A stretch of 64,000 nucleotides of DNA from Betaproteobacteria bacterium. GTDB taxonomy: Bacteria; Acidobacteriota; Terriglobia; Acidiferrales; UBA7541. The notes below the pieces were generated by a model. That model was not told where the DNA came from and made no database searches. It saw nothing but the letters and a program-made list of their open reading frames with translations. Each line of letters begins with the position of its first letter. Position 1 is the stretch's first letter. The stretch covers positions 1 to 64,000 of the forward strand of contig CAJCHZ010000078.1 of the NCBI GenBank assembly GCA_903970165.1, in the 5' to 3' direction. Below, one piece after another: positions 15,487-18,930 of the stretch. A program made the position numbers and the translations under genes.

Positions 15487-15936
15487 CTACCAGCTGCTAT
15501 ACACCGTCCCATCGAATGGGGAAGTCCTCGACGAATGCGAATGCACGTCCACCATTCCTGTCGTCACTTGATCGGGGCTCAGCACAACATTATCAAACAC
15601 CGGATCCCAGTCTGCCGCCTGTGTCATGGGATCCACGGGAACTTCCCTCAGGTAGCCCGCGCTATGCAAATCTTCAAGTGACTGCGGTGCCGCCTGCTTA
15701 TCCAGCGTGTAGTTATCAATGGACTCGCGCAGCACCTGCAAGTCGTGTTTGAGCACCGCCTCGCGCGATCTCGCGATCGTCTTGTCGTACCGTCCTGCCG
15801 CCAGCCCCAGAAGAATGAAAATAATCGTGATCACGATCATCAGTTCAATCAGCGTGAAACCGCCGCTCGAACTCCTGGCACGCAAGCGCCGCACTCCGCC
15901 CGCCCGACCTCGGCTTGTTCCGCTCAGCCCATTCAT
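15487..15936 (-). CDS. Type II secretion/pilus-type pseudopilin (GspG-like)
   Basis: A 149-residue pseudopilin. The prepilin peptidase site is SSGG/FTLIELMIVI: cleavage after Gly26, Phe27 as the new N-terminus and Glu31 as the conserved Glu5 needed for assembly. The hydrophobic helix (27-48) is followed by a globular domain with the GspG-like pattern (YTLDKQAAPQSLEDLHSAGYL, VPVDPMT, DVHS). It lies last in a minus-strand run after a second pseudopilin (18-base gap) and the secretin. No ATPase (GspE), inner membrane platform (GspF) or prepilin peptidase is in the window. Confidence 0.9.
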   Translation of the reverse strand: MNGLSGTSRGRAGGVRRLRARSSSGGFTLIELMIVITIIFILLGLAAGRYDKTIARSREAVLKHDLQVLRESIDNYTLDKQAAPQSLEDLHSAGYLREVPVDPMTQAADWDPVFDNVVLSPDQVTTGMVDVHSHSSRTSPFDGTVYSSW

Positions 15937-15954
15937 TCCAGCACCTCTACATAA

Positions 15955-16458
15955 CTACCAATCGCGATATTTTGTCCCATCGAGCGCTGTGCCCGTGGAC
16001 TTCGAATACACATCAAAAACATTGCTGCCGCCCCAACTCTGCGCATCCGAATCGTCGCTCACCGACCGCAAGCCCCAGTCTGCCTTCCCGGTCATCGGAT
16101 CCACCGGAACCTTTCGAAGGAACCTGAGTCGCTTATCGCCTGTCGTTCCAATTTGCACGCCCTGCACCAACGTGTCCAAATCCGGCGGATAATTCTGCGT
16201 TCCTACCTGCGTACGGAATTTGTGCTGGTCAGCCAGTTCCTTGTAATAGTCAATGGCGTCCCTCATCGTCCGCAGATCGTAGTGAAGTTCCGCTTCCTTC
16301 TGCCGCAAGGTGGTATAGCGGAAAATCGGCAGGGCCATGGAGGAGAGCACGAGCAGAATGGCGCAAGCTATGACCAACTCTAGCAGCGTCATACCCGCCT
16401 TCGGTGAAAGGCCATGCCGCCGAAATCGTTTCTGTAGAGCAACCGTCGCCAAACTCAT
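15955..16458 (-). CDS. Second type II secretion-type pseudopilin (GspG-like)
   Basis: A 167-residue pseudopilin with the leader site KAG/MTLLELVIAC: cleavage after Gly22, Met23 at position +1 and Glu27 as Glu5. The membrane helix is 23-44. The globular part (HYDLRTMRDAIDYYKELAD, PPDLDTLVQ, LRKVPVDPMTGKADWGL, DVYSKS) is close in pattern to its downstream neighbour and to GspG, so the two probably arose by duplication. The +1 Met instead of Phe is a minor variation. It starts 15 bases after the secretin stop, so the three genes form one operon. Confidence 0.9.
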   Translation of the reverse strand: MSLATVALQKRFRRHGLSPKAGMTLLELVIACAILLVLSSMALPIFRYTTLRQKEAELHYDLRTMRDAIDYYKELADQHKFRTQVGTQNYPPDLDTLVQGVQIGTTGDKRLRFLRKVPVDPMTGKADWGLRSVSDDSDAQSWGGSNVFDVYSKSTGTALDGTKYRDW

Positions 16459-16473
16459 AGCCTCTGCCGCAGA

Positions 16474-18792
16474 CTACGGCTGAACCTGCACGCTGGCCTC
16501 GCTCGTAACCAGCGGAATCGGCCGCTGCTGCGAATCCTTTGCATTCTGCTGCACGATGGACAAGCCGGATGTGCCCGGCGCAATGCCCTTAATCACGATA
16601 CCCAGCAAGGTCCCGCTTCCGTTCACACCCGGCGTGTTGGGCTGTCTTGTAGCGGAAATAATCGCCTGCCCCTTTTCTTTGTTGACGTTTTCCACGATGG
16701 CGATTTCCTGCGTCCCTCCGGAGAGAAACCCGCCGTGTTGCCCTTCGCCGACCGCGTGCTGCACTTCTTCCACGCTAATGACTGCCGGATTGTATTGCAC
16801 CAGCATCGGGATAGAGAACAGGTCGCTCACATTGTCCACGACCACTGCAATCGTTTTTGTCTCTCCCACTTTCAGCGTCAGCCCCTGCGGCTCGAACCGC
16901 AACTTGCCGGGCTGTCCTTGCGGCGCATTACTTACAGCCGGCGCGGTCGCCCCTGGCGTCCCTGGCAAGCTCCCACCGGGCGCCGTTCCGGCCGCTGGTG
17001 CCTGCCCGCCAGACTTTGCGGGTTCCTGCACCGCCGGCGTACGAATATCGCTCTCGCGCTTCACCTGTACGGCGAGTTCCGTTCCAGAGGAAAGCCCGCG
17101 CAAATTCGCTTTCGTCCAATCCGGTAGCCGCACGATATGCGGAATCAGCACGATCAGCACTTCGTCTTCCTGGTGTTCCACGCTGTCCGTTGAAAACAGG
17201 TAACGAATCACGGGAATCTTCGCCAATCCTGGCCAGCCATTCAGCGTTTTCGTATCCGTCCGCTGGATTAACCCCGCCAGAATATTCACTTCGCCTTCCT
17301 TCAATCGTATGTCATTTTCAACGACTCTCTGGCTGATGATCGGCTGGCTGATTCCTCCAATGGTGGATGTGCCTGTTACCGAAGAAACCTCGATCTTTTC
17401 TTTCAGGCTGATGTCATGATTCGGGTGTACGCGCGGCGTGATATCAATATTCACACCCACATCCTGATATTGAAACTGTGTGTTAACCAGTGGATTCACC
17501 AGGCCCGCTCCACCGACTGCTCCAACTCCTACTCCGGCCTGAAAGCTTCCCGTTGCAATCGGAATGCGGTCGCCGATCTTTAGCTTCGCCTGTTGCCCGT
17601 CCACCGACCGCAGCTCCGGATTCTGAATGATTTTCGTAAACGTATCCGTCAGCACCGCTGTAGCCGTCAAGTTCGGCACTGTGACGCTGTAATCGCTGCT
17701 GTTCAACTGCCGAAGATTCTGCAGCGTAATGTTGTTCGTCGTGGATGTGGTCGTCGTGGTAGAAGTAGTGCTTGTTGACGATGCTCCCGGATTAATCGCG
17801 ATGGACGCGCTCTGCCCGGGCAGAATTCCCAGGTTCCGCAATCGGTCCGTCCTCGCTTCCAGCACTTCCACCTGAATCACGACTTCCGGCTTCGCCTTAT
17901 CCACGTCGTCCAACACTTTTTGGATCAGCGTCAGCATGTCCGGCGTCGCGCGGATCACGATCGCATTCTGCGCGTTAAGCTGCTGGATGCGCTTCAAATC
18001 GAACAATTGCCGAAGCCCCGTCACAATTTCTGTCAAATCTTGCGGCGTCACCGTATTCGCCAGGTAAAACGTCTTCAGAACTTCCTCTTCGTAGTCGCGC
18101 CTCTTCTGCGCCTGGTCCGGGATCACCATCACGATGTTTTCCGTGATCGGTTTTGTAAAAGCTTTGCTCTCCAGGTTGACGATCTCCAGCGCCTGCGCAA
18201 TCGTCACATTATTCAAATCCACGCTGATTCGCCGCGCAGGGAATTCCGGATCGTAAATCATCGTCAGCCCCGCCAGCTTCCCGATCGTGTCGTACACCAT
18301 CTTGGCGTCGGCGCCTGGGGCTTTGTATGTGATGGCTATGTTCGACAGCGGCTTGATCTCCGGCGGGGCGGAGACAAACTTTTGCATTTCGTCATCGGCG
18401 GGCTTGGCGGAACTGTCGTTTGCGTGGTTTTGTTCCGCGATCATCGCCAGCGTCTTCTTCAGTTCCTGCGCTGCCACCGGGCTGCCCGGATCAATCATTT
18501 GCGCCCGCTGGAATTGGACCGCCGCGCCCTGCAAGTCCCCATTTTCCCTCTGCTTAATCCCTTCCTTGATGTGTTGCTCCCCGGCGTCAAACCGCGCTTG
18601 GTTGTATCGAATCTTGTAGCCGGCGTTATTGGGGTCCGCCTTCAGGGCCTTTTGGTAAAACTCCATAGCGGCATCGAAATCTTGCAGCGTCTCAGCCTTC
18701 CGCCCCTTGTTGTAATCCGAATCGCCTTTCGGGCAGCCGGAGGCGAACAGACCTATGCCGACACACAAAAACACAATTAGGCTACGCCGCAT
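16474..18792 (-). CDS. Secretin (GspD-like) lipoprotein with TPR head and C-terminal cohesin domain
   Basis: The ATG at 18792, with GGAG 5 bases upstream, gives 772 residues starting with a lipoprotein signal (FASGC, Cys20). Residues about 25-120 contain TPR-like repeats (AMEFYQKALKADPNNAGYK). Residues about 150-310 are secretin N-domains (SVDLNNVTIAQALEIVNLES). A Ser/Thr run lies at 339-353. The outer-membrane secretin core is about 380-556 (VPNLTATAVLTDT, GDRIPI, VGVNIDITPRVH, VNILAGLI). After a Pro/Ala/Gly linker (about 585-628), residues 631-772 form a cohesin-type beta-sandwich (KVGETKTIAVVVDNVSDLFS, MLVQYNPAVISV). It would form the outer-membrane channel for the two co-encoded pseudopilins. 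The longer start at 18822 would spoil the signal peptide. Confidence 0.92.
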   Translation of the reverse strand: MRRSLIVFLCVGIGLFASGCPKGDSDYNKGRKAETLQDFDAAMEFYQKALKADPNNAGYKIRYNQARFDAGEQHIKEGIKQRENGDLQGAAVQFQRAQMIDPGSPVAAQELKKTLAMIAEQNHANDSSAKPADDEMQKFVSAPPEIKPLSNIAITYKAPGADAKMVYDTIGKLAGLTMIYDPEFPARRISVDLNNVTIAQALEIVNLESKAFTKPITENIVMVIPDQAQKRRDYEEEVLKTFYLANTVTPQDLTEIVTGLRQLFDLKRIQQLNAQNAIVIRATPDMLTLIQKVLDDVDKAKPEVVIQVEVLEARTDRLRNLGILPGQSASIAINPGASSTSTTSTTTTTSTTNNITLQNLRQLNSSDYSVTVPNLTATAVLTDTFTKIIQNPELRSVDGQQAKLKIGDRIPIATGSFQAGVGVGAVGGAGLVNPLVNTQFQYQDVGVNIDITPRVHPNHDISLKEKIEVSSVTGTSTIGGISQPIISQRVVENDIRLKEGEVNILAGLIQRTDTKTLNGWPGLAKIPVIRYLFSTDSVEHQEDEVLIVLIPHIVRLPDWTKANLRGLSSGTELAVQVKRESDIRTPAVQEPAKSGGQAPAAGTAPGGSLPGTPGATAPAVSNAPQGQPGKLRFEPQGLTLKVGETKTIAVVVDNVSDLFSIPMLVQYNPAVISVEEVQHAVGEGQHGGFLSGGTQEIAIVENVNKEKGQAIISATRQPNTPGVNGSGTLLGIVIKGIAPGTSGLSIVQQNAKDSQQRPIPLVTSEASVQVQP

Positions 18793-18930
18793 GGACTCTC
18801 CGAGGCCTCGACACGAAGCCATTGCAGTCTATCACCCGGTTTAGAGCACCGGCAAGACGCGGAAGGTTGGCTCGACTCCTTCAAGTAATGTGCCCAAACC
18901 ATACCCATAGCCAAGTTTTAACAGTCCAGT

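Follow-up and report, generated by a model that had tools for sequence, protein, structure and literature searches.

A cohesin-tailed secretin and two pseudopilins as the probable outer-membrane half of a split type II secretion-like machine in an acidobacterium

We analyzed a 64,000-nucleotide stretch of an acidobacterial genome (hereafter the window; positions 1–64,000 of contig CAJCHZ010000078.1 in assembly GCA_903970165.1, labelled C78) and found that a three-gene locus at 15487–18792 on its minus strand encodes a secretin ending in a cohesin domain together with two pseudopilins, PsA and PsB. We propose, with a probability of roughly 70%, that this locus supplies the outer-membrane and filament part of a type II secretion-like machine encoded in two halves, the motor and platform half lying on another contig of the same draft genome (C74; 5.6 Mb in 131 contigs, 94% complete). 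The proposal builds on established features, namely the genes, their domains, the cohesin fold, their conservation, and the operon or split arrangement in relatives.

We compared the locus with 80 related loci from the window's class, some on short contigs, and with a second set of 20 loci centred on secretin relatives, of which one belongs to a class-mate (L171) and the other 19 come from outside the class. The named relatives among the 80 are metagenome assemblies of Acidobacteriota (e.g., Candidatus Acidiferrum, Terriglobia), and two further records in the set are titled Bacillota and Verrucomicrobia, respectively. In 14 of the 20 loci, nearly all of which come from other acidobacterial families, GspF and GspE are encoded in one run with the tetratricopeptide repeat (TPR)-bearing secretin; their GspE is 59–66% identical to that of C74, and 12 of the 14 have a PsA match after the secretin. 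Elsewhere in this set, one contig ends before the expected place of GspE (L169), three loci carry a secretin and PsA with no GspF or GspE nearby (L155, L156, L162), L157 has a secretin alone, and L171 shows the split form. Because other loci join C74-type genes and a cohesin-tailed secretin in one operon, we read the window as holding one half of a split system, an ancestral single operon having split in two in the window's class. There the secretin–PsA–PsB unit adjoins smpB (PsA in 79, PsB in 78, SmpB in 72, and PepA in 67 of the 80 loci), and a C74-type GspE or GspF was found near the secretin in none of the 80. Such a machine would escape gene-by-gene annotation, since one class has it in two pieces and its proteins score below model cut-offs.

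An earlier note on this stretch had remarked that the ATPase and platform genes are not adjacent to the secretin, and all T2SSF and T2SSE matches in the genome indeed lie on contigs other than C78, the missing GspE and GspF being found on C74. This 13.1-kb contig encodes, in order, GspF (T2SSF, E = 1.5e-54), GspE (T2SSE, E = 7e-130), PilM-like, PilN-like and T2SSM_b/PilO-like proteins, a 193-residue protein in the GspC position, and a third pseudopilin, PsC (314 residues). The putative GspC role is assigned by gene position, and the 193-residue protein has no meaningful match in Pfam, NCBIfam, or the PDB. Genome-wide, we identified three secretins (PilQ on C24, and those of C78 and C7), two GspF/PilC-type proteins (on C118, with PilB, PilT, and PilA, and on C74), and four long GspE/PilB-type ATPases (on C118, C74, C53, and C32); this secretin search found none on C74. 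The note had held that its proposal would be undone by a lack of dockerin-like sequences together with an ordinary complete gsp operon elsewhere using a different secretin: dockerins are indeed missing (see below), but the gsp operon on C74 comes without a secretin. The note's suggestion of a specialized secretion system is supported, in the form of a type II secretion-like one.

The secretin, of the GspD kind, occupies 16474–18792 (minus strand, as are all its parts) and has 772 residues from the ATG at 18792. The open frame itself spans 16474–18822 (782 residues, with that ATG, at which the earlier note ends the locus, as residue 11), and a start at the ATG gives a clean lipoprotein signal peptide (18733–18792) up to the lipobox Cys at residue 30 of the 782-residue frame. 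This Cys is invariant in 20/20 aligned secretins of the order and absent by eye from class-mate L171 and from the paralogs L173 and L176. Next come a TPR region (18433–18732), with a PF07719 match at residues 37–66 and helical hairpins in the model to about residue 130, and a periplasmic region at 17908–18360 (residues ~155–305) that holds only an N0 and one N1-like domain, as named by eye from the secondary structure of the model; Secretin_N matches in 20/20 relatives of one secretin alignment. The barrel (PF00263, residues 393–565, E = 3e-36) lies at 17128–17646. A Pro/Ala/Gly-rich linker at 16915–17100 (residues ~575–636), modelled with low confidence and fast-evolving (median identity 22–30%), leads to the C-terminal cohesin at 16480–16905 (residues ~640–781), identified by Pfam, profile, model, and structure matches. 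The architecture described in the earlier note, a TPR head, a Pro/Ala/Gly linker, and a C-terminal cohesin on a secretin, is thus confirmed.

The closest solved chains to the secretin are GspD (best E = 3.9e-30), ahead of PilQ (5.9e-20), and its scores fall below the cut-offs of both the GspD equivalog TIGR02517 (140.3 versus 351.35 bits) and the PilQ model TIGR02515 (98.7 versus 284.35 bits). Type II secretins are defined by four periplasmic N-domains, N0–N3. The system resembles type II secretion (Gsp/Pul/Xps) in its GspD-like secretin, GspG-like pseudopilins with Glu5, GspE, GspF, and PilO/GspM-like protein, as well as in having one pseudopilin without Glu5. It differs in the lipidated TPR head, in the presence of N0 and one N1-like domain only, in scores below equivalog cut-offs, in PilM/PilN-like proteins instead of a canonical GspL, and in the split of the operon in the window's class; moreover, where known GspDs carry a C-terminal S-domain, this secretin carries the cohesin. 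Like the TadD/PilF pilotins, which are TPR lipoproteins, the system pairs a lipidated TPR module with a secretin, here fused to the secretin N-terminus instead. PMC10499894 describes TadD as a TPR-lipoprotein pilotin working with a secretin, and PMC8787282 reports type II secretion genes in an acidobacterium.

Both pseudopilins carry the prepilin motif (PF07963) and Glu5: PsA (15955–16458, minus strand, 167 residues) and PsB (15487–15936, minus strand, 149 residues), the more GspG-like of the pair. The earlier note was right about two prepilin-motif genes but not in calling them near-duplicates, as they share 33% identity over 153 residues and form separate ortholog groups (identity of 50–75% for PsA and 42–83% for PsB in 20 loci of the order). 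A joint PsA/PsB profile finds GspG as its nearest solved chain (E = 7.6e-13), and both proteins score below the cut-off of the GspG model TIGR01710 (88.85 bits), PsB with 43 bits (E = 4e-11) and PsA with 20. PsC, unlike PsA and PsB, lacks a Glu at the fifth position following the cleavage Gly, a trait of GspK. Four Terriglobales-like loci (L133, L138, L139, L143) have a gap of ~400 bases between PsA and PsB, and a pilin-like match inside that of L139 could be a third pseudopilin.

Could the secretin and pseudopilins instead belong to a pilus, either the genome's type IV pilus or a separate one, rather than to secretion? The assembly proteins of C74 are PilM/PilN/PilO-like, and its GspE scores similarly as PilB and as GspE, both of which would suit such a fibre system. 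However, the genome has a separate type IV pilus set (PilQ and PilM on C24; PilB, PilT, PilC, and PilA on C118), GspD and GspG come closest to these proteins among solved secretins and pilins, and no retraction ATPase is found among the C74 genes read. We consider a pilus role improbable.

The secretin C-terminal domain is a true cohesin fold, as judged from its model (predicted local distance difference test score, pLDDT, of 91.9). Pfam scores it below threshold (PF00963, 21.6 bits versus a gathering cut-off of 24.1), and PF00963 matches at E ≤ 1 in 57/57 homologous C-termini (best 1.2e-16), these being the window's and those of 56 of 78 loci (of the 80) with a C-terminal tail of 120–175 residues. 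A profile of the 57 matches the nearest known cohesin, the non-cellulosomal 2xdh of Archaeoglobus fulgidus (E = 4.2e-5), which the model also matches by structure (Foldseek E = 8.2e-12; VIA Z = 16.9) and which shares the fold over the entire domain; the window cohesin differs from it in being appended to a secretin, in a genome without a dockerin. The top 20 solved cohesins in VIA align over 126–137 residues with Z of 16.1–17.4 and a root-mean-square deviation of 1.9–2.6 Å, and each of the 50 Foldseek and 50 VIA matches listed is a cohesin.

We surveyed 149 genomes of Acidobacteriota, of which 128 encode a secretin relative at E ≤ 1e-25 and 70 a PF00963 match above the gathering score, partly in other proteins. 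The Pfam model misses cohesin members, since the source genome's own was worse than E 0.01 in this phylum search though it reached 0.001 in the own-genome search. We also used a hidden Markov model (HMM) built from cohesins of the window's class, with operon-type secretins and those of family f24 outside its training set. It was positive in 10/10 split secretins of the class (some of which, or near copies, were in the training set), 15/15 operon-type secretins, 3/3 of family f24, 1/7 paralogs, 0/7 C7-type secretins, and not in PilQ. A rule that an adjacent pseudopilin implies a cohesin was rejected, as L164, L165, and L184 have a cohesin with no PsA match.

The earlier note had further suggested that the cohesin docks dockerin-like partners, and here the evidence runs the other way: the source genome contains no dockerin (PF00404) even at E ≤ 10, and no association was seen across the phylum. 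Dockerin matches occur in 66 of the 149 genomes, and at least 60 encode a listed secretin that ends in a cohesin (a lower bound drawn from 148 secretin and 150 cohesin matches listed, other than the source genome's own). Among these matches, 26 of 149 genomes have both, with an odds ratio of 0.94 (p = 0.87), a statistic that ignores kinship among genomes. In the class-mate family f4, the secretin is cohesin-tailed in 16/16 genomes and a dockerin matches in only three. Scans of 20 reference proteins for a dockerin pattern of the EF-hand kind, and for the paired pattern in frames of at least 80 residues in the window and the loci L010–L013, found nothing linking dockerins to the secretin. We therefore consider it very improbable that the cohesin is exposed outside the cell and holds dockerin-bearing enzymes in the manner of a cellulosome, even given its true cohesin fold and the dockerin matches in the phylum; C-termini of known secretins, moreover, face the periplasm. 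A true cohesin–dockerin system in Acidobacteriota is possible in G235 (family f22), where 23 cohesin matches, many in frames of more than 1,000 residues, occur beside three dockerin matches on contigs including C25, C29, and C22.

Between classes, the median identity of the cohesin is 21%, versus 42% for the barrel, and inside the window's class 54% versus 63%. Because the cohesin diverges between classes and is missing in some plasmid operons, it fits a module for lineage-specific partners more readily than a fixed structural joint. Judging from known secretins, the cohesin would most likely lie in the periplasm and recognize a partner other than a dockerin. A substrate is probably the likeliest candidate, and a component of the machine or the cell wall would be less likely.

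The plasmid operons come from a tblastn search of 72,556 plasmids, which returned 25 records in all, eight from Aliiroseovarius crassostreae and the others from Burkholderiales. We analyzed 13 plasmid loci from Pseudomonadota (5/13 records without a usable gene table), and all 13 hold GspE, GspF/PilC-type, secretin, PsA, and PsB matches together; the Aliiroseovarius operon includes an A24 peptidase. The cohesin HMM was positive in 6/13. In Janthinobacterium lividum NZ_CP049829.1, the secretin WP_176386355.1 ends in a cohesin, like that of the window, next to PsA-, PsB-, and PsC-like pseudopilins, GspF, GspE, and a PilO-like protein; it differs in being encoded in a single plasmid operon flanked by FG-GAP and RHS proteins, and it is 24.5% identical to the window secretin. 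Three plasmid secretins are annotated by NCBI as "cohesin domain-containing protein," so the secretin–cohesin pairing is already present in domain annotation; no published description of a cohesin-bearing secretin was found in the literature searched, with most subscription journals and preprints outside that search.

RHS proteins are annotated near the operon in J. lividum EIF2, E. terrae (two plasmids), and B. ambifaria, and RHS-like matches occur near it in J. lividum HAMBI_1919 and Variovorax. Six Burkholderiales plasmid loci have giant RHS or FG-GAP repeat proteins close by (L185, L186, L188, L189, L190, L194). Their position makes these giant proteins a lead to candidate substrates; for Acidobacteriota, no RHS or FG-GAP match was found at 1e-8 in the window or in 184 loci.

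Several points weigh against our proposal. The pairing of the C74 platform with the C78 secretin, and not with that of C7, is predicted from the gene order of other classes. Every system protein tested against NCBIfam falls below equivalog cut-offs, including the GspE and GspF of C74 against the GspE and GspF models. In L173 and L175, a cohesin-less paralog of the secretin lies 5–7 kb from C74-type PilN, PilO, and GspC-position genes. Seven of the 13 plasmid operons lack a cohesin by HMM, which means that the machine as such can do without the domain. Finally, the full-length secretin model (48 sequences, mean pLDDT 73.8, predicted template modelling score 0.37) resolves the domains but not their arrangement, the position of the cohesin included.

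An alternative is that C78 is an orphan unit: C74 would work with the C7 secretin, and C78 would be used with a pilus platform or be a relic. C7 does encode a second TPR-secretin (L011:7122-10250, G000:C7; 1042 residues; orthologs L177–L182), and the two halves are unlinked in the window's class. Against this, C7-type secretins lack the cohesin (0/7 by HMM), sit on their own long branch, and have no pseudopilin match in the loci of six relatives. Nor is C78 a relic, because the unit is intact and conserved with its pseudopilins in nearly all of the 80 loci. We regard the orphan alternative as distinctly improbable and retain the pairing of C78 with C74. In a quick tree of the secretin core, a starred clade of 16 unites the window secretin with its class-mates (10 split and 6 paralog sequences). 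Together with the C7-type clade, to which it is joined, it makes up a larger group of 23 that is also starred; the operon-type secretins fall outside this group and not in one single clade. The deep order is unsure, as the long branches of PilQ and L168 meet.

If the two halves do work together, the lipidated N-terminus and fused TPR module would probably take the secretin to the outer membrane, replacing a separate TPR pilotin, and the secretin would multimerize there into a pore. The C74 operon would supply GspF, GspE, the PilM/GspL-, PilN-, and PilO/GspM-like proteins, and the GspC-position protein, while PsA, PsB, and PsC would form a short piston with the GspK-like PsC probably at its tip, driven through the pore by GspE and GspF. 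With a cohesin on a flexible linker of ~60 residues at each C-terminus, the secretin ring would bear a crown of cohesins. We place this crown in the periplasm, probably, because the C-termini of known secretins are periplasmic.

Substrate recognition by type II systems has long been an open question, and a folded, apparently partner-specific module on the secretin makes it testable through the partner of the cohesin. A broader proposal is that Acidobacteriota have, as a core trait that they share with Burkholderiales plasmids, an undescribed type II system with a cohesin tail, in which the TPR head pilots its own secretin and the cohesin crown selects giant surface proteins (RHS and FG-GAP in Burkholderiales) for export. 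We consider this unlikely; if true, recognition of a ligand by the cohesin would itself serve as the signal for secretion. Our results suggest that soil-abundant Acidobacteriota may share one export machine.

Further secretins were also seen. The C7-type secretins carry FG-GAP repeats, apparently inserted between the N-domains and the barrel (PF13517 in seven members of a 13-protein scan that includes seven C7-type proteins), and four genus-mates (L173, L174, L175, L176) encode an extra, cohesin-less TPR-secretin of ~600–620 residues. Just downstream of PsB, an integrase gene (PF00589, 14400–15428) lies beside a tRNA-Met gene and looks like an element or remnant; L044 has a longer integrase, 62% identical, in a similar place.

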